Assembly: GCA_027484685.1 (NCBI GenBank)
Contig: JAIXSO010000061.1
Coordinates: 1 to 35,881 of the forward strand
Direction of reading: 5' to 3'
Length of the DNA: 35,881 nucleotides
Source of the DNA: Bacteroidota bacterium
Lineage (GTDB): Bacteria; Bacteroidota; Bacteroidia; UKL13-3
Shown: one piece after another, positions 8,765-22,451 of the stretch
Layout: every line of letters starts with the position of its first letter
Numbering within the stretch: position 1 is the first letter of the stretch
Notes under the pieces: generated by a model
Seen by the model: only the letters and a program-made list of their open reading frames with translations
Database searches by the model: none
Told to the model about the DNA's origin: nothing
Made by a program: the position numbers and the translations under genes

Positions 8765-9475
8765 TTAGAAATTTGGTTTGATTGATTTTTCAGCAAAATA
8801 ATCTAAAATATAATTCACTGCATCATCAGCAGTATCAACTAACTTAAACATTTCTAAATCTTTCAAATGAATATTACCTTCTCTCTCTCCCATCACTGTT
8901 TTCATCCAATCAATTAATCCACCCCAAAAATCGCTGCCTACCAATACAATTGGAAATTGAGCCACTTTTTGAGTTTGAATCAATGTTAATGCTTCAAATA
9001 GTTCGTCCATGGTACCAAAACCACCTGGCATAGCCACAAAACCTTGTGCATATTTCATAAACATTACCTTGCGCACAAAAAAGTAATCAAAGTTTATTAT
9101 TTTATCTTTATCAATGTATTTGTTGTTGAATTGTTCAAATGGCAACTCAATGTTTAAACCAACCGATTTTCCGCCAGCTTCAAAAGCACCTTTGTTACCA
9201 GCTTCCATAATGCCAGGACCGCCACCTGTTATTACACCAAATCCAGCATCTACTAATTTTTTAGCAATTTCCTCGGCTAATAAGTAGTATTTGTTATCAT
9301 TTTTTGTTCTTGCCGATCCAAAAATAGATACGCAAGGGCCAATTTTACTCATTTTTTCAAAGCCTTCTACAAATTCGGCCATGATTTTAAAAGTAGCCCA
9401 ACTATCGGTGGTTTTTATAACAGGCCACTCCTTTTTTTCAAAGGCTTTGGCTATTCTTTTTTCGTTTTCTGTCAT
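8765..9475 (-). CDS. LOG-family protein (TIGR00730-like nucleotide phosphoribohydrolase)
   Basis: A 236-aa cytosolic protein with a Rossmann fold. GSARTKNDNKYY (53-64), VITGGGPGIMEAGNKGA (81-97) and the signature PGGFGTMDE (150-158) are all intact. LOG enzymes release a base and ribose 5-phosphate from nucleoside monophosphates such as cytokinin nucleotides or AMP; the physiological substrate in most bacteria is unclear. The length fits bacterial LOGs, with a short N-terminal extension. It follows the YqeY gene with a 16-base gap and is closed by the terminator at 8726-8757. Confidence 0.88.
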   Translation of the reverse strand: MTENEKRIAKAFEKKEWPVIKTTDSWATFKIMAEFVEGFEKMSKIGPCVSIFGSARTKNDNKYYLLAEEIAKKLVDAGFGVITGGGPGIMEAGNKGAFEAGGKSVGLNIELPFEQFNNKYIDKDKIINFDYFFVRKVMFMKYAQGFVAMPGGFGTMDELFEALTLIQTQKVAQFPIVLVGSDFWGGLIDWMKTVMGEREGNIHLKDLEMFKLVDTADDAVNYILDYFAEKSIKPNF

Positions 9476-10107: not shown

Positions 10108-10983
10108 TTATTGTTTGTAAATATCTAAAATCCGTACATCGGGTTCGCTTAACTGAAAATAACCATAACCATTTTTTACATTGGTTGGAAAATTTATAAC
10201 CTCGCCACGCAATTGATTAAACAATGTTCCTGCGCGTTTTTGAGCTACCAAAAAATCAAAATACCCTTTGCTAATATTTGAAATACTTATGGCAAAAGTA
10301 TCACTTGGATGATTGCTAGTTACTGGCTTTTCTATTCGGTATTTTCCATTTTTAAAATCGGAATCGGTAAGTAAATCAAAGCTGATGTTTTGCTCTAGCA
10401 TTCGCTTAGCAATTAACTCTGGTGTAGGCTGTTGCGATATATCGTCTTTTTTATTTTTTATAAAATAATTGACCACATAAAAGTTTTGTTCGTCCATATT
10501 ATCGGTTAACGAATAATATACTTTTACCTCGTTACTATTTTTAAGTTTATACACAAAAACTGAATCAAAATTGGTTTTTACTAGCTTTTTGGCTTCGGCC
10601 ATTAATGCCAATTTCCCATCAATTATTACTTCTAGTTGGTAATTGGTTAAATCATTTATAATTGCAGTTTCTGTTCCGTAAATACCTTTTTCAATTTCAA
10701 CTAATTGTATGCTATAATTATCGGATTTTAATAATACCTGAGCATTGCCAACCAATAAACTGGTATCGAAGTTAAAACCATTGCTATCAATACCGCTATT
10801 TTTTACTTGAAGTGCTTCAAATGTTTTTGAAATACTAACACCTAAAAGCGAACTATTAACTAACTGTGAACTTACGGCTAACTTTTGCGGATTTTGAGCT
10901 ACAATTAAATCAATTGGCTCAGGTTTACACGATTGTATTTTTAATAAAATTGCACAGCTTAAAAATATGAATAAATATTTCAT
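10108..10983 (-). CDS. DUF4249-type outer-membrane lipoprotein
   Basis: A 291-aa exported protein. The signal peptide ends in IQSC, making C19 the likely lipidated residue. The C-terminal part (FDFLVAQKRAGTLFNQLRG, then INFPTNVKNGYGYF) follows the DUF4249 pattern, in which a 'P.N..NG.G.F' motif is close to the end. DUF4249 lipoproteins are paired with TonB-dependent receptors, as here, where the receptor gene lies 13 bases upstream; by analogy to SusD they may cap the receptor and capture substrate. The cargo is unknown. This copy is more divergent than the second DUF4249 protein at 18927-19751. Confidence 0.75.
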   Translation of the reverse strand: MKYLFIFLSCAILLKIQSCKPEPIDLIVAQNPQKLAVSSQLVNSSLLGVSISKTFEALQVKNSGIDSNGFNFDTSLLVGNAQVLLKSDNYSIQLVEIEKGIYGTETAIINDLTNYQLEVIIDGKLALMAEAKKLVKTNFDSVFVYKLKNSNEVKVYYSLTDNMDEQNFYVVNYFIKNKKDDISQQPTPELIAKRMLEQNISFDLLTDSDFKNGKYRIEKPVTSNHPSDTFAISISNISKGYFDFLVAQKRAGTLFNQLRGEVINFPTNVKNGYGYFQLSEPDVRILDIYKQ

Positions 10984-10996
10984 AATTGATTATTGG

Positions 10997-13264
10997 TTAA
11001 AATTTAATATTGTACGCAAGTGATGGAATAAAGCCAAATAAGCCAATTTGTTTGTAGTTTAAATTACCTGCTCCATTGGGTTCTATTTTGGTTCTAAAAG
11101 CTTGTGTTTGGTTATAAATATTGTATCCACCAATATGCCATTCGGCTTGGTATTTTTTACTTGGTTTTGATTTGATAACCAAATTCACATCCAATCTGTG
11201 TGAAGGTGCTAAAACCAAAGAGTTTCTTTCGCCATAAATGGGCATGGTTAACACATCATTATAAGAACCACTTGGCATTAAAAACTGACCCACTATTGGC
11301 GTAATTCTAGAACCACTAGCCCAAACATAATTGGCCGAAAATGCAAACTTGGAATTGATTTGATAATTACCAACTACTGAAAAATCATGCCTTCTATCGT
11401 AGCGGGTAAAAAACTCATTGCCATTATTCAACTCGTTAAATTGGCGACTGCTCCACGATAAAGTATAAGCTATCCAGCCAGTAAATTTGCCTTCTTTTTT
11501 ATTAATAAAAAACTCTAAACCATAAGCTTTTCCTTTGCCTTGTATCAAGTCTTCTTCCACTTTATTATTCAGTAAAATTTGAGTTCCTTCTTTGTATTCC
11601 ACTAAATTTTGCATCCATTTATAATAACTTTCTATTTGTATGGAAATGCCTTTTGTTGCTAATTCTTTTTCGTAACTCATCGAAATTTGATGTGCTGTTT
11701 GAGGCTTTACTTTTTCGGTTACTGGATACCATAAATCGGTTGGCATTAAAGCCGATGACGAACTCACAAAATTAACATGTTGGCTCATTTTATTATAAGC
11801 AAATTTTATAACCGATGTGTTGTTTAAACTGTATTTAAAAGCCAAACGTGGCTCTGGTATTGCATACAGATAATTATTGTTAAATGAATTTGACAAACGT
11901 ATGCCGTAATTTAAAGTAATTTTTTTAGACAACACATAATCATGCAAAGCATAAAAATTAAGTTGGTTATTATTGAAAAATTGCGCAGCATCGGCCTTTA
12001 AAGTTTCGTTTACACTTCCTTTAAAAGTTGATTGATTTGGATTCACCAATAACCTTGTGGCATCAAAGCCAAACTTAAGGGTATGTTTATTTGAAATGGT
12101 ATTTACCCAATCTGCTTTAAAGGTAAAATCGTGCAATGTGGAGTTAAGTGTGAAGTAGGTATTTTGCAAATTTGAATTTACATTGTAGCCGTAATACGAA
12201 TTACTTAACATTATATTGGATTGCCATTTATTGCTGGCTCTTATCCATTTTATAGAGTGAACACTATTGCCTGATTGCGTTCCAAAATCAATACTTAAAC
12301 CGCTTTTATTTTTATTAGCAGTTTCCATAATGCTTAGCACATCATTGCCATAATAACTGCTAAAAACCAATTTATTTTTATTGTTTATTTTATAGTTAAC
12401 TTTAGTATTTATATCGTAAAAATAATAAGGTAAGTTGTTTCCAACTATTGCAAAAAGTTTGTCTAAATAAGTTCTTCTTGCTGCAATTAATATTCCTAAT
12501 TTATCTTTTATAATTGGGCCTTCGGCTTTAACCCTTGCCGAAATTAAACCAACGCCTGCTTCTGTATTCCAATTGGCCAAATTGCCTTCTTTCATTTTTA
12601 CATCCAATACCGATGATAACCTACCGCCATACATGGCCGGAAATGCACCTTTATACAATTTTGCATCTTGCAAAGCATCGTTATTAAATACAGAGAAAAA
12701 ACCTAATATATGCGAAGGATTATAAACAGGAGCACCATCAATTAACACCAAGTTTTGATCGGCAGTTCCACCTCTTACAAAAATGCCCGCAGCGCCATCT
12801 CCACCACGTTTTACACCAGGCATTAACTGCATCGCTCTTACCACATCGCGCTCACCACCTATGGTCGGAATATTGTTTAATTGCTTAGCCGAAATAGCCA
12901 ATACAGAACTTTGCGTGGTATTTAAATTATTATTTGTTTTGGCTGCATTGATACTTACTTCCTTTAATTGATTATTGGTTTCGGTTAGGTAAATGGCCAC
13001 AAAGTTGGTATCGTTAACTGTAATCAATTGGTTTTTAAAGCCAAGTTGTTTTATTGAAATTTTATCGTTTATGTTGGCTTCAATTGTAAAAGTTCCTTTA
13101 GCGGTGCTAAAAACTTGCTTTTTATTTGTTTTGTTTATAATGCTTACGCCTTCTAATGCTTGATTATTTTTGGTGTTTTTTATAATGCCATTTAGCATAA
13201 AAGTTTTAGCATGTAATGGCAAACACAAACTACAAATAATCAATAGGTATATGATCTTTTTCAC
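10997..13264 (-). CDS. TonB-dependent receptor (DUF4249-associated)
   Basis: A 755-aa outer-membrane transporter. Residues 1-19 are a signal peptide (ending LHAK). A carboxypeptidase-regulatory-like beta domain (about 23-95; GIIKNTKNNQALEGVSI) is followed by the plug (about 125-230; QLMPGVKRGGDGAAGIFVRGG, LVLIDGAPVYNPSHILGFF, GAFPAMYGGRLSSVLDV) and a beta-barrel ending in LAYNIKF with a terminal Phe. There is no STN domain, so this receptor is not expected to signal to FecR by itself. It sits between a secreted T9SS cargo gene and its DUF4249 partner. A hairpin lies in the 55-base leader. Confidence 0.9.
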   Translation of the reverse strand: MKKIIYLLIICSLCLPLHAKTFMLNGIIKNTKNNQALEGVSIINKTNKKQVFSTAKGTFTIEANINDKISIKQLGFKNQLITVNDTNFVAIYLTETNNQLKEVSINAAKTNNNLNTTQSSVLAISAKQLNNIPTIGGERDVVRAMQLMPGVKRGGDGAAGIFVRGGTADQNLVLIDGAPVYNPSHILGFFSVFNNDALQDAKLYKGAFPAMYGGRLSSVLDVKMKEGNLANWNTEAGVGLISARVKAEGPIIKDKLGILIAARRTYLDKLFAIVGNNLPYYFYDINTKVNYKINNKNKLVFSSYYGNDVLSIMETANKNKSGLSIDFGTQSGNSVHSIKWIRASNKWQSNIMLSNSYYGYNVNSNLQNTYFTLNSTLHDFTFKADWVNTISNKHTLKFGFDATRLLVNPNQSTFKGSVNETLKADAAQFFNNNQLNFYALHDYVLSKKITLNYGIRLSNSFNNNYLYAIPEPRLAFKYSLNNTSVIKFAYNKMSQHVNFVSSSSALMPTDLWYPVTEKVKPQTAHQISMSYEKELATKGISIQIESYYKWMQNLVEYKEGTQILLNNKVEEDLIQGKGKAYGLEFFINKKEGKFTGWIAYTLSWSSRQFNELNNGNEFFTRYDRRHDFSVVGNYQINSKFAFSANYVWASGSRITPIVGQFLMPSGSYNDVLTMPIYGERNSLVLAPSHRLDVNLVIKSKPSKKYQAEWHIGGYNIYNQTQAFRTKIEPNGAGNLNYKQIGLFGFIPSLAYNIKF

Positions 13265-13319: not shown

Positions 13320-14207
13320 TTATTGATTAACTACTATTTTATGATTTACTACACCTTGCTCTGTGATTATTTGAGTTAAATAAATTCCATTGTTTATACC
13401 TGTTAAATCAATGTAATTGTTGGTTTTTGATATTTCGTTTTGCGTTATTATTTTACCGTTTAAATCCATTAAGGTAACAGATGCGCTTTGATTGTTTAAA
13501 TTAAAAAACAACTTGTCTTGTGCAGGATTTGGGTAAACAGAAATTGCTAAATCGTTATTTTTAACTTTTGATACTGAAACAGGTGCATCGGTAAACGATA
13601 AGTCATCCAAAATTAACTTGGTACCTTCAATTACTTGATATGAATTACCCGCATAAATAAAAATACTTGCGCTATCAGGAACGGTTGTTTCGTCTATGTA
13701 TTGAATTTCGGCAGAAAGTTTGGTGTAATCATTTTTTACTTCAACACCTTTAAAACTGCCGCTTCCTAAATACTCGCCATTTTTTGAAACAACAATTTCA
13801 ATATTGAAAGAGTCGTTATTAATAGGAAAATACTTGTAAAATGCTTCTAAACTTTTTGGTTTAGCATTTAGTTTAAATTTTAAATTATACTCTTGGGTTA
13901 AAAAATTAACATTGCCCGAAATCAAACTTCCGCCTTGTTTTTCCTGACTAGTATCAGGCGCGTTGGTAATTTCAACTGCATAAGTTCCACTGTGCGCATC
14001 AGTTGTTTTCTTTACTGGTAATTGATTGGGATTGGTAAATGCAAAATAAAAATTGTTACTCATCCAGTTTCTCGGGTCTTCAAATTGAACCAAACCAAAA
14101 TTACGTGTTTGCCATTGCTCGAACGAAGGATTAGGTATTTGAGCTTTTACTTTAATTGCAGATAATAAAATAATTCCGCCTAAGAATAATTGTTTAATTG
14201 TTTTCAT
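13320..14207 (-). CDS. Secreted protein with T9SS sorting domain (carbohydrate-binding-like fold)
   Basis: A 295-aa exported protein. Signal peptide 1-22 (ending VKAQ). IPNPSFEQWQ..., ...DPRNWMSNNF and DAHSGTYAVEI resemble the jelly-roll modules of Bacteroidota surface proteins that begin 'N.SFE.W' and contain 'HSG.YA'. From about 222 (SVYPNPAQDKLFF) to the end (HKIVVNQ) runs a type A T9SS sorting domain, so the protein is moved across the outer membrane and anchored or released. It heads the operon with the receptor and DUF4249 lipoprotein, and its promoter carries the ATAGGGGT/AATTGTTTTA element. The ligand is unknown. Confidence 0.8.
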   Translation of the reverse strand: MKTIKQLFLGGIILLSAIKVKAQIPNPSFEQWQTRNFGLVQFEDPRNWMSNNFYFAFTNPNQLPVKKTTDAHSGTYAVEITNAPDTSQEKQGGSLISGNVNFLTQEYNLKFKLNAKPKSLEAFYKYFPINNDSFNIEIVVSKNGEYLGSGSFKGVEVKNDYTKLSAEIQYIDETTVPDSASIFIYAGNSYQVIEGTKLILDDLSFTDAPVSVSKVKNNDLAISVYPNPAQDKLFFNLNNQSASVTLMDLNGKIITQNEISKTNNYIDLTGINNGIYLTQIITEQGVVNHKIVVNQ

Positions 14208-14238: not shown

Positions 14239-14268
14239 TAAAACAATTTCATTAGGGGCTACCCCTAT
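14239..14268 (-). promoter_or_regulatory. Two-part promoter element A (T9SS cargo/receptor operon)
   Basis: On the minus strand: ATAGGGGT (14268-14261), exactly 12 bases, AATTGTTTTA (14248-14239), then 31 bases to the ATG. The same two boxes at the same spacing precede the divergent lipoprotein gene and the fecR gene. Similarity to element B continues past the second box (STARTAYAA, then CAATAAA). The first box is also half of a TAGGGG-CTA-CCCCTA palindrome in this copy. Confidence 0.65.
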
Positions 14269-14353
14269 TCTGATTTTATTTTATTTTTAAACAAAAAACA
14301 AATAGTTGATTTTTAAATATTTAGAAACTAATAAATAATTTTTTTTGAAAAAT

Positions 14354-14383
14354 ATAGGGGTTATACATTTATCAATTGTTTTA
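14354..14383 (+). promoter_or_regulatory. Two-part promoter element B (lipoprotein gene)
   Basis: ATAGGGGT (14354-14361), 12 bases, AATTGTTTTA (14374-14383), then 28 bases to the ATG at 14412. All 18 box positions are identical to element A. It does not fit the housekeeping TTG-N19-TAnnTTTG form, which suggests an ECF sigma factor. Confidence 0.65.
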
Positions 14384-14411
14384 CTAATACAATCAATAAA
14401 AATAATAAAAT

Positions 14412-14870
14412 ATGAAAAAAACATTTATTGCTGTAACAGCATTATTCGCAATTACGTTTGCATGTAAAAAGGAAAGCCAAACAAATACTGCAACTACTAG
14501 TGAAACTTTATTTCAAAAAAATCAAAGATTGATTACTGCCTCTAATTGGAGGGCTGATTCAATTGTTTTAATTAACAATGGAATTGTAGTAAAAAATGCA
14601 ACTGATTCATGTATGGCCGATGATGTTCATACCTTTGCAGGAACCGGATTTTATTTTGTAAAAAAAGGAAACATTTCATGCTTTGAAAACGAACCTGCAG
14701 TTGATACCTTGAAATGGGAACAAACCACTAATGGAGATTCTTTAAAAATTAAAGGAATTGATTTGCCTTATATTATGAATTATAAATTGAAATCGGTTAC
14801 TGATTCAAGGTTTGAAATTTCAAATAAAGACGGATTTACTGAAGAAATAATTATTTATAAAAAGAAATAA
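14412..14870 (+). CDS. Small lipoprotein, lipocalin-like
   Basis: A 152-aa exported protein with a lipobox ending FAC (C18). After a short linker, FQKNQRLITASNWRADSIVLINNG and the following beta-rich sequence with WEQTTNGDSLKIKG and YKLKSVTDSRFEIS follow the pattern of lipocalin-like lipoproteins of Bacteroidota, where 'L....W......' opens a small barrel. C68 (DSCMADD) and C88 (ISCFENE) could form a disulphide. It is the only plus-strand gene in this block and starts from the same type of promoter element as the divergent T9SS/receptor operon, so the two are probably induced together. Its own terminator follows. Confidence 0.75.
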   Translation: MKKTFIAVTALFAITFACKKESQTNTATTSETLFQKNQRLITASNWRADSIVLINNGIVVKNATDSCMADDVHTFAGTGFYFVKKGNISCFENEPAVDTLKWEQTTNGDSLKIKGIDLPYIMNYKLKSVTDSRFEISNKDGFTEEIIIYKKK

Positions 14871-14895
14871 TTATAAAAAGGTAAAATTTAAAATG

Positions 14896-14963
14896 AGGTT
14901 GTGTTTTAATTTACTCATCAAAAAGCTTTTAAGTGATGGTTTATTAAGACACAACCTTTTTTT
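14896..14963 (+). terminator. Terminator of the lipoprotein gene
   Basis: A 15-bp stem with one G-T wobble (14896-14910 with 14943-14957), a 32-base loop that contains a smaller CATC/GATG hairpin, then seven T on the plus strand. The gene on the opposite strand ends 17 bases further on. Confidence 0.8.
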
Positions 14964-14973
14964 ATTAATACTG

Positions 14974-16002
14974 TTACACTCTTGTGTAATGAAGTTGAAC
15001 AAGCCCTTTTTCAAAATGTTTGGAAGAAACCAAATTCAATTTTTGCTCTGGACGATAATCTTTGAAAAGTTTAATTCCATTTCCAAGTAAAATGGGTATT
15101 ACAGAAATAATAAATTCATCAATTAGATCATTGTTTAAAAGTTCATTTACTATTTCAGCTCCACCATCACAAAATATATTTTTACCAGGCTTATATTTAA
15201 GTTTTTCAATGAGTAATTTTATATTACCGGTGTAAAATTTTACCGAGCCTAAGTTCGGTCTTGGGGTTCTAGTAATAATGTATGTATCCTTATCTGTATG
15301 CGGAAAATCAAAACCCATTGATATTACCTTTTCATAAGTCTTACGCCCAACAATAACAGCATCCACTGTTTTTACAAATTCTTCGTAACCATAATCTTGT
15401 CCTTCTTGTTCTACTATCGAAAGAAAACTTAAGTCGTCATTAGGTTTTGCAATGTAGCCATCCAAACTCATGGCTATATAAAGAACTAACTTTCTTTTGT
15501 TTAATTGTAATTGCCAATTGAATAAAGCTTCTGATTCTCCCGTTTGTATAAAGTTATTATTTTGAAGTACTTTAAATGATGCGAAATTTTTTTTGTCTGT
15601 GGAAGCTTTAATACACTTAACCAAAGGTTGTGTTTTGGCCCAATCAATAATTCCCCCAACAATTTCAGTCATAAATCCTTTTCCCTGAAATTCATCATAA
15701 GTTCCATAACCAATTTCAATTTCACCATCTGCATTGGGTTCACCTAAAATACATAAATCCCCTATCATTTTGTTTTCGGCTTTCGAAATTGCTGTCCAAA
15801 TAGTTGAATACAAATAATTCTTTGTCTTATTTGATACATTAGGAAGTATTGTATTTTCTAACGCTTCTTTTAACTCCGCAGAAATTGTTCTTGATGTTTC
15901 ATTCAAATTCAGTTCTTCTTCCAGTGAGTTGTCGCATTTGGCGTATTTTACCAGCTGCTCGTAAGTTAAAGGTATTAATATAAGTCTTGAAGTTTCTATC
16001 AT
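14974..16002 (-). CDS. GNAT acetyltransferase - dihydrofolate-reductase-like fusion
   Basis: A 342-aa cytosolic fusion. Residues 1-165 are a RimJ/RimL-type GNAT domain (ETSRLILIPLT at the start; IGYGTYDEFQGKGFMTEIVG with the acetyl-CoA loop at 97-116; N-terminus-like 'ASFKVLQNNNF'). Residues 168-342 are a YyaP/RibD-C-type dihydrofolate-reductase-like domain (KRKLVLYIAMSLDGYIAKPN, VGRKTYE, FCDGGAEIVNELL, PILLGNGIKLF). At the join (about 166-171) there is no Met or alternative start where a free DHFR-like protein would begin, so the fusion is genuine in this sequence. Reactions and substrates are unknown. Genes on both sides are unrelated, and it may have arrived separately. Confidence 0.85.
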   Translation of the reverse strand: MIETSRLILIPLTYEQLVKYAKCDNSLEEELNLNETSRTISAELKEALENTILPNVSNKTKNYLYSTIWTAISKAENKMIGDLCILGEPNADGEIEIGYGTYDEFQGKGFMTEIVGGIIDWAKTQPLVKCIKASTDKKNFASFKVLQNNNFIQTGESEALFNWQLQLNKRKLVLYIAMSLDGYIAKPNDDLSFLSIVEQEGQDYGYEEFVKTVDAVIVGRKTYEKVISMGFDFPHTDKDTYIITRTPRPNLGSVKFYTGNIKLLIEKLKYKPGKNIFCDGGAEIVNELLNNDLIDEFIISVIPILLGNGIKLFKDYRPEQKLNLVSSKHFEKGLVQLHYTRV

Positions 16003-16113
16003 TTTTATTGTTCGGTATAAATTTTACTTTTTTGTGAGCTTAACAACTAATTTTATAAAGTCGAGTTAATGGAATAATTAAACTTTGCTGTTAAAAAAAT
16101 TAAGTGAATTCAT

Positions 16114-17322
16114 TTAATAAATTGTTATTTTTTCAACTACATGATTGCCTTTAATCAAATAAAGATTTAAGTAATAAATCCCTGGTGTTAAATCCTTTTC
16201 AATATTGAATTTAGTTTTGTTTATTTCTTCTGAATAGATATTTTGACCAAAGCTATTGGTAATAGTATAACTACCTATTATAAATTCACTTATTACATCA
16301 ATTGCTTTTCCGTTTGATGGGTTAGGATAAATTTGTATGGTATGGCTAAGTTTTTTCAGTTCTTTATTATTTAAAACAAGATTTTTTTGATAAAGCCCTG
16401 TTTCTGTAGCTAAAAACAGCTTTCCTTTATGTTCTAGTATATCATAAGTATATAAATTTGGAACATATTCTTCATCAATAGCCCAGCTTTCTCCAATTAA
16501 AGCAAGTCTATTTCTTTTTTGAATCCATGAACCCTTTTCCAAATTATTGGTTACTAAATAATCATTAGTTAATCCTGAATAAATGATTCTATCAACTCCA
16601 AGGCGAGTGCCAGTATTATCTTTGGCCCAACTTATTCCAGCATTTATTGTTTTAAATACGTTATTACCATTTACAACTGTTAAAGTGTCTGAACTATTAA
16701 TCAAATCAGTAATTTGAAAACCTGGTGAAAGCGAACCTAAATAATACCCCTCTTCCCATTTATTGGCAGTAAAGTTATATTTATGAAAAACTCCATTTCC
16801 ACCAGAAGCAATAAAAAGGTAATTATTAGCACTTGCAATTTTATTTACACTTCCAGCAACATTGAGGGGCAGCGAATTATTGAACGGAATCCAAGTATTC
16901 AACAGGGAGTCGAAAATATAAACACCGTTTCCTAATGTTGCTGCATAAACTTTATTCCCCTTGCTTGCAAAACCGGTTATTGGCAAAGTGTTACTGATGG
17001 TATTTTTAAACGAAAGCCCATTATCGTTTGACTGAAAAATTCCATTACTTACAGTTCCAATAAATATTTTGTTATCAATAAATTCTATGGATTGAATTTC
17101 TATTGGATTATTACTAACAGTAATACTTGTAAAAGTAGAACCTCCATCAAGGCTTTTGTAAATAATATTATTCAGTGTGGCTGCATAAATTGCGTCTTGA
17201 TTGTTTTTTAGCGCAATAATATCTTTATTTGGAATTGAGTTAACCAATGTCCATTGCGCAAAAGAAATTTTTATACTTAGCCACAAAACAACTGAAATAG
17301 ATGATTTGAAAAGGTATTTCAT
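16114..17322 (-). CDS. Secreted beta-propeller-like protein with T9SS sorting domain
   Basis: A 402-aa exported protein. Signal peptide 1-22 (ending SFAQ). The body consists of repeated short strands of the BNR/YCF48 type: IYAATLNNIIYKSLDGGSTF, IFIGTVSNGIFQSNDNGLSF, VYAATLGNGVYIFDS, LFIASGGNGVFHKY, VFKTINAGISW, LFLATETGLYQKN. This is a propeller with Asp-box-like blades. From about 333 (IYPNPSNGKAID) to the end is a type A T9SS sorting domain. It starts eight bases after the FecI stop, so a sigma factor and a surface protein share a message. Ligand or enzyme activity is unknown; no catalytic sialidase residues are evident. Confidence 0.8.
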   Translation of the reverse strand: MKYLFKSSISVVLWLSIKISFAQWTLVNSIPNKDIIALKNNQDAIYAATLNNIIYKSLDGGSTFTSITVSNNPIEIQSIEFIDNKIFIGTVSNGIFQSNDNGLSFKNTISNTLPITGFASKGNKVYAATLGNGVYIFDSLLNTWIPFNNSLPLNVAGSVNKIASANNYLFIASGGNGVFHKYNFTANKWEEGYYLGSLSPGFQITDLINSSDTLTVVNGNNVFKTINAGISWAKDNTGTRLGVDRIIYSGLTNDYLVTNNLEKGSWIQKRNRLALIGESWAIDEEYVPNLYTYDILEHKGKLFLATETGLYQKNLVLNNKELKKLSHTIQIYPNPSNGKAIDVISEFIIGSYTITNSFGQNIYSEEINKTKFNIEKDLTPGIYYLNLYLIKGNHVVEKITIY

Positions 17323-17330
17323 AAAATGAA

Positions 17331-17927
17331 CTATTTAACCCACATTTTATAAAACAATACCACCAAATTTAAATAAGGTAAAACACTTTTGCGCAACAAA
17401 GCCAATGCTTTTCCCATTTGGTTTTCAACTGTTTTAACCGATACATTCATGGTTTCGGCTATTTCTTTATAACTTAAATTTTCAAACCTACTTAGCTGAA
17501 AAGTTAACTTACATTTTTCGGGCAAAAGTTCAATGGCTTCGTTTATTTTTCCATTTAAATCCTTGGCATTTAAATTAGCTTCTACATGGTTGGTCATGTA
17601 GTTTTCGTAATTTTCAGGCTCATCGTCTAACCAATTTTTGCGTTCATTTACTTTTAAGATATTAAAACATTGATTACGAACAGCCATAAATAAGTAGGCT
17701 TTAAAGGAGGTAATATTTTCTAAATCTTGGCGTTTATCCCAAATTTTTATAAACACATCTTGGGTTATATCTTCAGCCTGTTCGGTATTTTTTAAAATAT
17801 TGCGGGCAAACTTAACCAACGATGAATAATAGGTTTTAAATAAGGTTTCAAGTGCCTTTTTATCTCCTTGCTTCATTTGCTGAAGCAATAAATTGTCTAA
17901 ATTTATTTGATGTAAAGTAGCTTCCAT
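17331..17927 (-). CDS. FecI-like ECF sigma-70 factor
   Basis: A 198-aa sigma factor of the Bacteroidota FecI type. Region 2 lies at about 30-95 (YYSSLVKFARNILKNTEQAE, DITQDVFIKIW, AYLFMAVRNQCFNIL). Region 4 lies at about 128-180 (LPEKCKLTFQLSRFENLSYK, EIAETMNVSVKTVENQMGKA). It would direct RNA polymerase to promoters of surface-transport genes once its anti-sigma FecR receives a receptor signal. fecR ends two bases upstream, the reverse of the common sigma-then-FecR order. The two-part element found at three starts in this block is the obvious candidate target. The C-terminus (LNLVVLFYKMWVK) is a hydrophobic tail often seen in these proteins. Confidence 0.9.
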   Translation of the reverse strand: MEATLHQINLDNLLLQQMKQGDKKALETLFKTYYSSLVKFARNILKNTEQAEDITQDVFIKIWDKRQDLENITSFKAYLFMAVRNQCFNILKVNERKNWLDDEPENYENYMTNHVEANLNAKDLNGKINEAIELLPEKCKLTFQLSRFENLSYKEIAETMNVSVKTVENQMGKALALLRKSVLPYLNLVVLFYKMWVK

Positions 17928-17929
17928 AC

Positions 17930-18895
17930 TTAGTTACAGCCCTTTCCCGATAATGCAATATCGTTGTTATTTTTACTGTAAGAAATTGAAAGTATTTTAC
18001 TTAAATCGTCTAAAACTTGGGTAAGATTGGCGTTGGTAAACTCACAAGTAACATGGCAATTATTTAATAATGGATTATCTACCGAAATGCTTACACCATA
18101 ATAATGTTCAATAGATTTAATGGCTTCGGTCAAAGGCACATCGTTAAAAATTAACTTATTTTCTTTCCAAGTTATTTCGTTTATATCAAATTGCGATAGT
18201 TTATTATTTAATCCAGTTGAGTCAATTAAAGCTGCTTCGTTTGCTATAACAATTTGCGCTAAATTAGTTTTGGTTGATTTAAAAGAAACTTTGCCCGTAG
18301 CAACTGAAAGCTTTACTGTTTGTGTTGTATCAAAAGCTATTAAGTTAAATGAGGTACCTAAAACTTGTGTAACTGCATTTTTACTGGTAATAATAAAAGG
18401 CTTTTCAGGATTTTTTACTACTTCAAAAAACGCTTCTCCGTTTAAAATTACATTGCGCTCTTTATCTTGATTATTGCTAAAACTAATAACTGAATTTTTA
18501 TTTAACCAAGCTATACTGCCATCGGGTAAAACTACTTTTTGTTTTTCGTTATTGGCGGTAATGGTAGTAAAATCAGCATTTAACACATAAACTTTAAATA
18601 ATACCAAGCCAATAGTAAATACCAGCGCTACCGAAGCAGCAATTTTCATTAAAGTATTTAATTTAAAAACAGGCGCTTGGTTTTTTAGCTGAGGTTCTAC
18701 TTTGTTCCAAGCTGCATGTACATCTATTTCAGCATCACTTTCATTGGCATTTTGCCAAATGGTTTCAAATTGCTTAGCATACAATTCGTTTTCAGCACTG
18801 CTATTTCGCCAATTTACAAGTGTTTCTTTATCAGCCTCAGTAGCTTCATTTGCAAGTACTTTGGTTATTAGTTCAATTATTTTTATATCTTCCAT
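17930..18895 (-). CDS. FecR-like anti-sigma factor (with DUF4974)
   Basis: A 321-aa inner-membrane protein. The N-terminal cytosolic part (1-80; LITKVLANEATEADKETLVN, WRNSS, FETIWQNA) is the sigma-binding domain. One membrane segment lies at about 83-103. The periplasmic FecR domain spans about 110-215 (VVLPDGSIAWLNKNSVISF, LNGEAFFEVVKNPEKPFII, LGTSFNLIAF), and the C-terminal DUF4974 (about 245-315; LIFNDVPLTEAIKSIEHYYG, CHVTCEFTNANLTQVLDDLS) resembles an STN fold and likely contacts the receptor. The start follows the DUF4249 stop by 31 bases, and element C lies in that gap only five bases from the ATG, so a transcript from it would be nearly leaderless. Confidence 0.9.
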   Translation of the reverse strand: MEDIKIIELITKVLANEATEADKETLVNWRNSSAENELYAKQFETIWQNANESDAEIDVHAAWNKVEPQLKNQAPVFKLNTLMKIAASVALVFTIGLVLFKVYVLNADFTTITANNEKQKVVLPDGSIAWLNKNSVISFSNNQDKERNVILNGEAFFEVVKNPEKPFIITSKNAVTQVLGTSFNLIAFDTTQTVKLSVATGKVSFKSTKTNLAQIVIANEAALIDSTGLNNKLSQFDINEITWKENKLIFNDVPLTEAIKSIEHYYGVSISVDNPLLNNCHVTCEFTNANLTQVLDDLSKILSISYSKNNNDIALSGKGCN

Positions 18896-18900
18896 AAGGC

Positions 18901-18930
18901 TATAACAATTTAAAATAAATAAACCCCTAT
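18901..18930 (-). promoter_or_regulatory. Two-part promoter element C (fecR-fecI-cargo)
   Basis: On the minus strand: ATAGGGGT (18930-18923), 12 bases, AATTGTTATA (18910-18901). This is 17 of the 18 box positions of elements A and B at identical spacing. It overlaps the stop codon of the DUF4249 gene and ends five bases before the fecR ATG. That short distance weakens it as a start for fecR unless the message is nearly leaderless, as also seems the case for the GbsR gene at 35226. Confidence 0.5.
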
Positions 18931-19751
18931 TGCAGGTTAAAAATTTTAGGTTCCGATAAACTATAAGCCGCTATTATTCCAATTTTATTACTCATATTGC
19001 TGTATACAATAGTTGGCTCACTTATAGGTAAAATATTAGAAAAATTAAAAATACTGGTTGCGTTGCTGTATTTAGCATACTCATCATTGCAGTTTACACC
19101 ATAACATTCTATTCTTACTGGGTAAACAAATTCGTTTGGTTTAAAGGCATATAATTTTTTAGTAATACTTTCGTTTTGTTTTAAAAATGGAATTTTACTA
19201 CTGATTGTTTCAGTTAAAAATACTTTTGAAGAATCGTTAAAAAACACTTGTGCCACAAATTTAGCATTGATTGGATTTGCCGATTTATTGGTACATTTAA
19301 TAGCTGCATTGTAATAGTAAAAATCGGTTAGCGAACTATCGAATTTTATATCAAAATCAAAGCTTGGTTTTTCAGGAATTTTAGTAAAACCGGTAATTGT
19401 CTCACTTTCGCTAGAAGCTTGAAAATAATAAGTTTCACCAGCTTTTATGGTATTAGGTTGATACTCGGCATTAAAGTTAAAAGTAAAGTCGTTAAAAGCC
19501 AATTCGTAAATATTCCCGTTAATATTTATTTGCGCTTTGGCATTGGTTGCGTACAGGGGTTCCATGGTATTTGGTTCGCCAAATACTGGCTTGGTATAAC
19601 TTAAATTGGCTGTAAAAACACTATCGCCTTCACCTAAAAAAACTTCGGCCACTAACTTTTTTTTATAAGGCACATCTACAATTATGGCTTCTTCTCGTTC
19701 GCAACTTGCCAACATCAAAGCGGCAAATAATAATATAAATAGTTGTTTCAT
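18927..19751 (-). CDS. DUF4249 outer-membrane lipoprotein
   Basis: A 274-aa exported lipoprotein with a good lipobox (LASC, C17). KKLVAEVFLGEGDSVFTANLS near the start and EPTIVYSNMSNKIGIIAAYS near the end are the characteristic opening and closing motifs of DUF4249. IKAGETYYFQASSESETITG matches the central 'G.tY.l.v....g..vsa.t.iP' region. It is encoded eight bases after the STN-bearing receptor and presumably forms its SusD-like extracellular partner; the substrate is unknown. The coding sequence runs into promoter element C. Confidence 0.82.
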   Translation of the reverse strand: MKQLFILLFAALMLASCEREEAIIVDVPYKKKLVAEVFLGEGDSVFTANLSYTKPVFGEPNTMEPLYATNAKAQININGNIYELAFNDFTFNFNAEYQPNTIKAGETYYFQASSESETITGFTKIPEKPSFDFDIKFDSSLTDFYYYNAAIKCTNKSANPINAKFVAQVFFNDSSKVFLTETISSKIPFLKQNESITKKLYAFKPNEFVYPVRIECYGVNCNDEYAKYSNATSIFNFSNILPISEPTIVYSNMSNKIGIIAAYSLSEPKIFNLQ

Positions 19752-19759
19752 TGCTCTGT

Positions 19760-22309
19760 TTAAAATTTAATTGACCAACTTAATGATGGAATTATTGGAA
19801 ATAAACTAACCTGTTTAACATATCTTTTTGCATTTGCACCTCCATTTTCGTCTGAGGTAATTTGGTAGTAAAATGGATTAGCTCTATTGTAAGCGTTATA
19901 AAGACTTAGTTCAAAATTGCTCACAATTTTATTTTGAATTACATGCGTGTATTGCATTGATAAATCTAACCTATGGTAAGCACGCATTCGGTAATTGTTT
20001 TTATCCTCGTAATCATAAATACTTAAACCAGGAACACTGCCTTGTTTGGGTGTATGGTTAGCTGCAATATATTCGCCAACTGGTAAGGAAATAGGATAGC
20101 CAGTTCCATAAACCCAATTGGCCGAAAATGTAAAATGCTTTTTGGTTTTATAAATTAAATTGATGCCTAAATCGTGTGTTCTGTCATAATTAGCTAAAAA
20201 CTCCTTTCCCCGGTTGATACCTTCAAACTGCATGGTGGTTTTTGATAAAGTATAACTTATTTGTCCAGAAAAATGTGCTCCTGTTTTTTTTATCATTACC
20301 TCGCCCCCAAACGATTTACAACTGCCTTGTGTTAATAAATCATTGGCATTGGTAACCTGAACATCGGTTGAAAACAAAGGCAGCATTTGAAAAAATGAAG
20401 CACCTTCTTTTAGCGAAGTTATATTATCAATGGTTTTATAATAACCTTCAACTGCTACCGAAATTTGACTTCCTTTTATTCTATTTTTAAAAACTCCTGC
20501 CGAAATAATATTGGCACGTTGAGGTTTTAAATTGGCATTGCTTACTGTCCAAATATCGCTCGGAAAACCCAAAGCATTTAACGAAGTAATTAAATGAACA
20601 TATTGATTCATGAGTGAATAACTGCTATTGATTGTCCAGTTATTTTTTAAATTATAAATAATATTTACCCTTGGTTCAGCCCTAAAATAAGTAGCATTAT
20701 TGTTAAAATAACTCAATCTCAATCCGCTTATAACCTTAAGGTTGTTAAACAAATTATTTTGTATTTCAGCGTACGAAAAACCTTCAGTAGCCAAGCTTGC
20801 CACACCAATATTTTGTGTTATTCCTGATTTGTAATTTTGCAACGAAACATAAGGCTTTATTTGATGTAAAATATAACCCGCCCCAAACTTTAATTGGTGT
20901 TTAGCCGAAAACAAATAATCAAAATCGGTTTTAAAATGGTAATCGGTAATGGACGAATTTAACTTAGAAGTAGTTGAATCCATTGAGTTTCCTGTAAACC
21001 CAAATCCAATTTCTGTTTTATAATTACTCAACGAAAACGAAGTGTTTGAAAATAATTTACTGGTAAATTGTTGGTTCCACCTGGCCGAAAAAGTGCTATT
21101 TCCCCAATTAATTACTTCATCTTTATTTTGCGAAAAGTTAAATTTATCGTAACCCAAATAACTGCTTAAATACAACTTACTGCGATTACCAATATTTACC
21201 GAAATTTTTCCATGCAAATCGTAAAAATAATAAGCCAATCCTTCTTCTTCATTTTGAGCTACCAGTTTTGATAATTGATTGATATACGACCTCCTAGCCG
21301 AAACCACAAACGATGATTTATTTTTTAAAATAGGCCCTTCTAACAAAATTTTAGAGGCAATTATTCCTGTTGAAACTTCTCCTCCAAAATGCTCTTTGTT
21401 TCCATCTTTTAAACTCATGTTAAGCACCGATGATAACCTACCACCATACTTTGACGAAAAGCCGCCTTTTATTAATTCTGCGCTGCGCAATTCATTTCCC
21501 GACACCATTGACGATAAACCTAAAAAATGATAAGCATTGTAAATCACTGCATCATCCATTAAAACTAAGTTTTGGTCAGGCCCCCCTCCTCTTACATACA
21601 TATAGCTATTTCCTTCCGCCCCTTTTTGCACGCCAGACATTTGCATTAAGTATTTTACCACATCTTTTTCGCCTAAAATCATGGGTACATTGCTAATTTC
21701 TTTAAGCGGAATATCTACAAGGCTTAGCGTTTTGTTATTGCTGCTTACTGCACTTTTTATCACAATTTCGCCTAACTCGTTATTCGATTTTAAAAACAAG
21801 TCCAATTGGGTGTTTTTATTCAAATAAAAACTTTTGGTTTGAGATTTATAACCCAAATACGAAAACGAAATGGCGTGAGTATCTGCAGGTAAGGTAATGG
21901 AATAAAATCCATAACCATTAGAAGTGGTGGTAATATTAGCCGATTCAATATTTATAATTACGCCTATAAGCAATTCGCTGCTTCCATGCTCGCGCAAATA
22001 GCCACTGATGGTATAATTGGTTTGTTGTTTTTTATATAGCAATATGGAGTTGCCATTAACTTTGTAAGCCACAGGCAAAGTTTTAAATAACTCGTAAAGT
22101 ACCTTTTCAATAGGCTGGTTTTGAACATGAATACTAACTTTTTTGTTCACCTTAACTATATCAGTACTGTAGGCAAATTTTAAGTTATAATTACTTTCAA
22201 GCTCCTTAATAATTTTTCCAATTGGCTTATTTTCAGCATGAATGGTAACTTGCTGAGCCAGAATTAATTTACTGCAAAAAATGAAAATAAACAGACTAAA
22301 GTATTTCAT
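19760..22309 (-). CDS. TonB-dependent receptor with STN signalling domain (FecA-like)
   Basis: An 849-aa outer-membrane receptor. Signal peptide 1-18 (ILAQ). The STN domain spans about 20-90 (HAENKPIGKIIKELESNYNL, FAYSTDIV, VSIHVQNQPIEKVLYELF) and is the part that relays substrate binding to FecR. A carboxypeptidase-regulatory-like domain follows (about 96-175), then the plug (QMSGVQKGAEGNSYMYVRGG, LVLMDDAVIYNAYHFLGL, GGFSSKYGGRLSSVL) and a barrel that ends in SLSWSIKF with a terminal Phe. With the DUF4249 lipoprotein, FecR and FecI downstream it forms a complete trans-envelope signalling and uptake operon. Upstream at 22321-22330 is AATTGTTTTA (minus strand) without its ATAGGGGT partner. Confidence 0.92.
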   Translation of the reverse strand: MKYFSLFIFIFCSKLILAQQVTIHAENKPIGKIIKELESNYNLKFAYSTDIVKVNKKVSIHVQNQPIEKVLYELFKTLPVAYKVNGNSILLYKKQQTNYTISGYLREHGSSELLIGVIINIESANITTTSNGYGFYSITLPADTHAISFSYLGYKSQTKSFYLNKNTQLDLFLKSNNELGEIVIKSAVSSNNKTLSLVDIPLKEISNVPMILGEKDVVKYLMQMSGVQKGAEGNSYMYVRGGGPDQNLVLMDDAVIYNAYHFLGLSSMVSGNELRSAELIKGGFSSKYGGRLSSVLNMSLKDGNKEHFGGEVSTGIIASKILLEGPILKNKSSFVVSARRSYINQLSKLVAQNEEEGLAYYFYDLHGKISVNIGNRSKLYLSSYLGYDKFNFSQNKDEVINWGNSTFSARWNQQFTSKLFSNTSFSLSNYKTEIGFGFTGNSMDSTTSKLNSSITDYHFKTDFDYLFSAKHQLKFGAGYILHQIKPYVSLQNYKSGITQNIGVASLATEGFSYAEIQNNLFNNLKVISGLRLSYFNNNATYFRAEPRVNIIYNLKNNWTINSSYSLMNQYVHLITSLNALGFPSDIWTVSNANLKPQRANIISAGVFKNRIKGSQISVAVEGYYKTIDNITSLKEGASFFQMLPLFSTDVQVTNANDLLTQGSCKSFGGEVMIKKTGAHFSGQISYTLSKTTMQFEGINRGKEFLANYDRTHDLGINLIYKTKKHFTFSANWVYGTGYPISLPVGEYIAANHTPKQGSVPGLSIYDYEDKNNYRMRAYHRLDLSMQYTHVIQNKIVSNFELSLYNAYNRANPFYYQITSDENGGANAKRYVKQVSLFPIIPSLSWSIKF

Positions 22310-22451
22310 GCAGCAGCAAATAAAACAATTTTTTCAGTTAATATTTGTAGATAACATCAAATAAACTGCGTTGATTTTGTGATTTTGCTAGGTTATAAGG
22401 GTTGGGTAATTTACTATTAGCCAATAGTTTTAACTAATTATACTATAGCTA

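Follow-up and report, generated by a model that had tools for sequence, protein, structure and literature searches.

The stretch of DNA analysed here, called the window throughout, is contig JAIXSO010000061.1 of assembly GCA_027484685.1, a sequence of 35,881 nt from a Bacteroidota bacterium of the order-level lineage UKL13-3. It carries a block of genes in which a FecI-type extracytoplasmic function (ECF) sigma factor with regions 2 and 4, a FecR protein and a TonB-dependent receptor bearing an STN domain are found together, as in FecI/FecR signalling, and three genes of the block are preceded by copies of one two-part element. The conserved parts of this element are a -35 box ATAGGGGT, a 14-base spacer and a -10 box TTGTTWTA. 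We are confident that it is an autoregulated promoter read by RNA polymerase with the FecI-type sigma factor of the same block, as an earlier note on this DNA had proposed; the same element is found with the same spacing and before the same genes in five syntenic relatives, it is present at six held-out loci, and it co-occurs with the sigma type.

Three copies of one element in the window

The element ends 31 bases before the start codon of a type IX secretion system (T9SS) cargo gene (copy A), 28 bases before that of a predicted lipoprotein (copy B) and 5 bases before the fecR ATG (copy C), and the -35 box of copy C overlaps the 3' end of the upstream DUF4249 gene. The earlier note had described ATAGGGGT-N12-AATTGTTTTA with identical spacing in copies A and B and a third copy with one altered base before fecR; the match is exact at both of the former sites, and copy C does read TTGTTATA in place of TTGTTTTA. 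The agreement of copies A and B over some 20 more bases, also claimed there, is only loose, as the shared part, judged by eye, is a gapped AT-rich leader with CAATAAA. With up to three mismatches allowed, the window has three matches against a shuffle mean of 0.23 (100 shuffles, one of which also gave three).

The Bacteroidota housekeeping -7 box is described as TAnnTTTG (PMC7366714, PMC6847099). As the note had it, this form is not matched: TAnnTTTG was not found within 100 bases upstream of fecR, the cargo gene behind copy A or the lipoprotein gene. The second cargo gene of the window does carry the box within that distance, and in the relatives it precedes 0 of the 17 genes tested other than STN receptors (100 bases upstream).

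The genome-wide search suggested in the earlier note returned three exact matches to ATAGGGGT-N12-AATTGTTWTA (equivalent to ATAGGGGT-N14-TTGTTWTA) in the 4,525,610 bases of the source genome, each before genes of this block, while base composition predicts 0.0015. Close matches are not scattered over the genome.

Conservation in syntenic relatives

Relatives were found by a FecR search of 58 related genomes and a FecI search of named genomes. Gene order is kept in five of them, namely G005 (locus L133), G019 (L134), G032 (L135), G023 (L136) and JAUXUD010000023.1 (L062). The number of cargo genes varies between one and two, L134 contains an unmatched gene, and at the place of the first DUF4249 gene L136 has a gene without a match to that of the window at 1e-4. 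The lipoprotein and the GNAT-RibD protein of the window have no match in the five syntenic loci. The upstream regions of 28 genes from these relatives and the window were scored, and a site was counted as strong if at most 5 of 100 shuffles equalled or beat it. Strong sites precede 17 of the 28 genes: the cargo gene next to the receptor (6/6), fecR (5/6), the second receptor (3/6), the lipoprotein (1/1), the STN receptor (1/6) and the other cargo gene (1/3). The sixth fecR, in L062, has an exact ATAGGGGT and a poor -10 box. The spacer measures 14 bases in 16 of the 17 strong sites and 15 bases before fecR in L136, and the relatives keep the boxes, not the spacer sequence. Since the consensus was drawn from the same sites, the shuffle counts are not independent and alone prove little.

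A matrix built from 13 sites of the five relatives, with the window excluded, was also scored on the window, and its results there and at the held-out loci are independent of the training sites; the training set omits the L136 fecR site with its 15-base spacer, a weak L135 site before the first cargo gene and the second sites upstream of the L134 cargo gene and the L135 fecR. It gives copies A, B and C scores of 22.0, 22.0 and 23.1, respectively, the threshold being 14 for the window and the 85 further loci described below and 13 for the held-out loci. GGGG and GT are invariant in all 13 training sites, where the -10 core is GTC in ten and GTT in three. The TTGTTWTA form of the -10 box given in the earlier note is accordingly right for this genome (GTT in 3/3) and differs from the commoner core of its relatives, GTC. 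Over the 13 training, three window and nine held-out sites the GT never varies, and C follows it in 10/13, 0/3 and 9/9, respectively. All three window copies read GTT and the three training sites of the same-genus relative G005 read GTC, a joint change; by eye, no residue in the FecI alignment tracks GTT versus GTC, and L134 has mixed cores.

Held-out loci and wider searches

A FecR alignment search of 64 genomes of the order gave 15 loci, six of them previously unused, which served as the held-out set (judged by coordinates, L062 and G063 come from one genome, and G063 was not counted in this set). All six have one or more upstream sites, before fecI, fecR or a cargo gene. Upstream hits scoring at least 13 numbered eight, whereas 50 column-permuted matrices gave 0.12 on average and never more than 1; two more hits fell outside the upstream class, although one of these lies 20 bases before an ATG. 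The nine held-out sites used for the core counts omit one of these ten hits, which scores 13.0 in L220 and is not near a start. Counting all FecR loci of the order in the 64 genomes, 14 of 15 have a site, the miss being G023:C14 (L140).

Beyond these, 85 further loci (79 from the FecI search and 6 from the FecR search) yielded 15 upstream hits against 1.8 expected, and 15 hits outside upstream regions against 19.3 expected. In some Chitinophaga loci, the spacing is the same with CCGTTATA as the second box. The density of TAGGGGT in 90 loci, training loci included, is 111 per Mb between genes and 25 per Mb within genes, where eight scrambled boxes reach 13-52 per Mb between genes; part of the intergenic excess is a hairpin common to close Chitinophaga relatives. 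Chitinophaga and related loci (L053, L054, L056-L060, L064, L067 and L068) have in common a TAGGGGTTAATCAAAAAGCCGGT followed by a GCCGG hairpin, near 9003-9016 (9731 in L053). Lying 60-125 bases before the promoter-like site, the TAGGGGTTAATCAAAAAGCCGGT-GCCGG hairpin is probably the terminator of the preceding gene.

The site before fecR and probable autoregulation

Autoregulation, also proposed in the earlier note, is well supported by comparison: besides the strong fecR sites in five of the six syntenic loci, five of the six held-out loci have a site before fecI (L221, L223, L224 and L225) or fecR (L222). A rival reading is that copy C is not a working promoter and that all transcription of fecR-fecI comes from a start ahead of the STN receptor gene; the position of copy C, which leaves 5 bases to the ATG, falls within an apparent operon and overlaps the end of the DUF4249 gene, lends itself to that reading. 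However, every one of the five syntenic relatives has upstream of fecR a -35-like box containing GGGG, paired with a -10-like box, the pair being strong in four of them, and these boxes are kept although the surrounding sequence has changed; moreover, loci in which fecI comes first have their site before fecI. A non-working copy C is unlikely.

Transcription from ECF promoters begins some 6 bases downstream of the -10 box. In the window, L133 and L062, 5 or 6 bases separate that box from the fecR ATG, and in L134 it ends 5 bases short of the second in-frame ATG of fecR; protein alignment places the FecR start near that ATG. The distance is 20 bases in L135, 24 in L136 and 16 in the held-out L222. 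Because copy C ends 5 bases before the ATG, the fecR mRNA of the window is probably leaderless, with a predicted start at or next to the ATG, a feature not common to every relative. Leaderless transcripts are reported to make up 5.5 percent of mapped mRNAs in Flavobacterium psychrophilum (PMC9723704).

Link to the sigma type

Among the 58 genomes, FecR (PF04773) is present in 11, and TIGR02985, the model of the FecI-type sigma factor, is matched over its cut-off in the same 11. The strict motif occurs in ten of these carriers and in 7 of the other 47 genomes (Fisher p 3.6e-6), and a reversed control pattern in 4/11 and 14/47. Counted as hits, the strict motif and its reversed control number 22 and 6 in the carriers, and 7 and 20 in the other genomes; 15 of the 22 carrier hits sit at the FecI locus, and 8 of the 11 carriers have one there.

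These counts bear on whether the element belongs to another ECF sigma factor of the genome, with FecI merely adjacent. Sigma region-4 matches over cut-off number 15 in the source genome, seven genomes that lack FecR have a strict hit, and several distant FecI/FecR loci are siteless, all of which would suit such a factor. Within the source genome, however, there is one TIGR02985 match over cut-off (FecI) and one FecR, and the motif follows this sigma type (10/11 versus 7/47) though at E 0.001 the sigma model finds a match in every one of the 58; together with the clustering of carrier hits at the FecI locus and the element at every held-out FecI locus of the order, this makes another ECF factor very unlikely. 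Positions, spacing and conservation of the sites, and their link to the sigma type within the order, are results of computation.

A further rival takes the element for an operator bound by a transcription factor, or for a signal in a regulatory RNA, and not for a promoter. The small dyad AGGGGTAGCCCCT in copy A speaks for it, but, by eye, that dyad recurs neither in copies B and C nor at the sites of the relatives, and a dyad operator was rejected. The conserved form is asymmetric: its two boxes are separated by about 14 bases and lie as far from the starts as a promoter would, and its GT(C/T) at -10 resembles the CGT box described for F. psychrophilum ECF promoters (PMC9723704). Two boxes at a fixed spacing upstream of gene starts, with a GT(C)-type -10 core, are what an ECF promoter would present, and the operator or RNA reading is highly improbable. 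Recent duplication or chance in AT-rich DNA, for which the divergent placement of copies A and B and their similar leaders might speak, is refuted by conservation at the syntenic and held-out loci, and with 0.0015 exact copies expected, spacers that differ between copies, relatives that keep boxes and not spacers, and GGGG and GT invariant in 13/13 sites, its probability is negligible.

How far the element reaches

Several observations weigh against the promoter assignment or narrow it. Summed over all 58 genomes there are 29 strict hits and 26 control hits, the excess being confined to the carriers; 7 of the 22 carrier hits lie away from the FecI locus, and G032 and G035 have no strict hit at theirs. 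Upstream hits occur in only 12 of the 85 wider loci. Outside the order, a clear site is found in only 3 of 11 FecI/FecR loci (L137, L139 and L045); that of L227 is weak, no site was found at the FecI/FecR genes of L138, L226, L228, L229, L230, L231 and L052, and two siteless loci hold high-scoring TIGR02985 members (193.6 and 163.1 bits). A looser pattern shows no excess in the source genome (139 hits against 137 of the reversed control), and in five genomes a loose pattern gave fewer hits than the control in every one. Finally, copy C before fecR has no space for a leader.

Since only 3 of the 11 FecI/FecR loci outside the order have a clear site, against 14 of 15 within it, the element is not a general promoter code of the TIGR02985 family; what it marks is FecI/FecR loci within this order, along with some elsewhere. 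The TIGR02985 score was tried as a predictor of sites and rejected, as three further high-scoring loci gave no site (L226), no site (L228) and a weak one (L227). In the last (L227 1-57, G057:C22), a weak, shifted copy directly follows a second high-scoring FecI gene and leaves 4 bases to an ATG, a near-leaderless arrangement; the contig end cuts it. The recognition-code claim was narrowed from the family to a branch because many distant members lack the site, and it is a tentative and rather doubtful idea that ATAGGGGT-N14-TTGTCwTA could be the code of one large FecI-type branch in Bacteroidota, which would make the regulons of these uncharacterised sigma factors legible from sequence, and of which the present system would be a variant with its sensor on the housekeeping sigma factor, a leaderless FecI-driven fecR and a -10 core that has drifted from GTC to GTT genome-wide.

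A wider regulon in the source genome was also sought. Each of the five nearest other hits (two mismatches; L004, L005, L006, L188 and L193) falls within an open reading frame longer than 80 codons, and one-mismatch hits to a shorter pattern at L012 and L013 lie within open reading frames as well. Two more such hits, L010 and L014, are in no open reading frame of at least 80 codons; their scores reach only 10.0 and 11.8, and within 250 bases downstream no open reading frame of at least 50 codons begins. As exact matches occur only here, the next-nearest lie inside open reading frames and looser patterns give no excess, the detectable regulon in the source genome is confined to this block, and weaker sites elsewhere are possible.

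Among sites in relatives that lie away from the block, two stand out. In G032, a one-mismatch element stands 21 bases before the ATG of an unlinked second operon of a TonB receptor and a DUF4249 protein on another contig (L198 2293-5548, G032:C9); this operon is a likely target in trans and the plainest example of one. An element without mismatch in G005 has no gene close behind it (L199 456-656; G005:C3, about 99955-100155); by eye, it lies between reductase-like and release-factor-like genes, with a terminator-like hairpin and T run some 140 bases downstream, and a FecI-dependent small RNA is possible there.

The presumed sensor receptor and a proposed mechanism

The earlier note had also seen half of the element before the STN receptor, at 22321-22330. 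The sequence is present there, but it does not make the receptor a member of the regulon: the -35 position reads CTACAAAT and the matrix score is -3.2, the STN receptor is siteless in 5 of 6 loci, and the half element, rejected as a fourth site, overlaps a housekeeping-like box, TTTATTTG. Its occurrence is due to chance. An exact TAnnTTTG lies 7 (L133) and 5 (L062) bases before the STN receptor ATG; in L135 it lies, by eye, 6 bases ahead of the in-frame ATG that is the likely start. In L134 a FecI-type site takes the place of the housekeeping box, L136 has neither, and in the held-out L220 no exact TAnnTTTG was seen by eye close to the STN receptor ATG. This distribution suggests that the sensor receptor is often made by the housekeeping sigma factor, with the regulator and the outputs driven by FecI.

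From this arrangement, we infer the following scheme. The STN-type TonB receptor, probably made with the housekeeping sigma factor, would act as the putative sensor of an outside ligand and signal through FecR, a route from receptor to FecR to FecI that the domains of the three proteins suggest. FecI, once freed, would bind at the sites discussed above and start transcription before fecR-fecI itself, giving a putative positive feedback from inside the receptor operon. It would also start the operon of T9SS cargo, receptor and DUF4249 protein at copy A and the lipoprotein gene at copy B.

Comparison with known systems

The element is very likely a conserved ECF promoter that is both FecI-dependent and self-regulating. 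The block resembles FecI/FecR/FecA of E. coli in that an ECF sigma factor, a transducer of FecR type and a receptor carrying a signalling domain are encoded together, with the sigma factor reading its targets (PMC9249621). It differs in that 5 of 6 loci lack a FecI-type site before the sensor gene, that fecR precedes fecI, and that fecRI has a FecI-type site of its own, whereas E. coli fecIR transcription is described as not autoregulated (PMC9249621). Self-regulation, lacking in the E. coli model system, becomes directly testable here. Orthology with the ferric citrate system of E. coli was rejected, as NF041727 gives 59.3 bits (cut-off 260) and NF007296 47.9 bits (cut-off 385).

Among promoters of Bacteroidota, the SM6 ECF promoters of F. 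psychrophilum likewise have a conserved CGT core at -10, and one ECF/anti-sigma pair is reported to stand behind them (PMC9723704). Unlike the present targets, SM6 genes include T9SS machinery, and no AGGGGT -35 box was found in the text description of SM6 in that source (PMC9723704). PM2 of Bacteroides thetaiotaomicron, a non-canonical -30/-10 promoter and proposed target of SigW-1/SigH-1 (PMC12596196, PMC7366714), is similarly an alternative promoter attributed to ECF factors, with a TGTT at about -10 before two SigW-1 targets (the motif is not significant) that is near the TTGTT of the window. In contrast, PM2 is attributed to other ECF groups (ECF251 and ECF114) with other targets, and no AGGGGT box was found in the portions of its description consulted. 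As in BT2172-BT2173 (PMC11003636), a TonB-dependent receptor adjoins a DUF4249 protein, twice in this block; unlike that pair, for which the source text consulted is silent on regulation (PMC11003636), the pair here is tied to a FecI promoter.

Literature searches gave, among the matches listed and judged partly by title, no AGGGGT-type promoter recognised for Bacteroidota FecI factors, and a published logo is possible. B. thetaiotaomicron is reported to encode 50 ECF sigma factors (PMC12596196), and in the parts of the literature consulted for comparison promoters are reported for few Bacteroidota ECF sigma factors. An element of fixed form that predicted sites at loci of the order outside its training set, and that has a clear tie to one sigma type, means that regulons of such FecI systems can be proposed from sequence.

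The gene block

The features of the block are listed in Table 1.

Table 1. Promoter copies, housekeeping-like box and genes of the FecI/FecR block, with positions in the window
Feature	Position	Strand	Details
Promoter copy A	14239..14268	minus	-35 ATAGGGGT 14261-14268; 14-base spacer; -10 TTGTTTTA 14239-14246
Promoter copy B	14354..14383	plus	-35 ATAGGGGT 14354-14361; 14-base spacer; -10 TTGTTTTA 14376-14383
Promoter copy C	18901..18930	minus	-35 ATAGGGGT 18923-18930; 14-base spacer; -10 TTGTTATA 18901-18908
Housekeeping-like box TTTATTTG	22317..22324	minus	One mismatch from the TAnnTTTG -7 box; 7 bases before the STN receptor ATG
STN-bearing TonB-dependent receptor, presumed surface sensor	19760..22309	minus	Domain matches
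DUF4249 protein, partner type of TonB-dependent receptors	18927..19751	minus	Domain match
FecR anti-sigma/signal transducer	17930..18895	minus	FecR and FecR_C domains; membrane segment at about residues 82-102 by eye
FecI-type ECF sigma factor	17331..17927	minus	TIGR02985, 168.9 bits (cut-off 126.4)
T9SS-type cargo downstream of fecI	16114..17322	minus	Weak C-terminal sorting domain, 19.9 bits against a cut-off of 27
GNAT-RibD gene	14974..16002	minus	Between both halves of the FecI block
Small predicted lipoprotein behind copy B	14412..14870	plus	By eye, signal and cysteine in ITFACKK
T9SS cargo, first gene behind copy A	13320..14207	minus	C-terminal sorting domain
TonB-dependent receptor, second gene behind copy A	10997..13264	minus	Domain match
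DUF4249 protein, third gene behind copy A	10108..10983	minus	Domain match

The lipoprotein has no Pfam or NCBIfam match at 0.001 and was rejected as a conserved target, as weak relatives only are found elsewhere, in 5 of 57 other genomes. The GNAT-RibD gene is a single frame that fuses a GNAT acetyltransferase domain and a RibD C-terminal domain. In the N-terminal part of the STN receptor, residues 26-90 match both STN and FecR_C of Pfam, which points to a fold shared by the ends of the receptor and of FecR.

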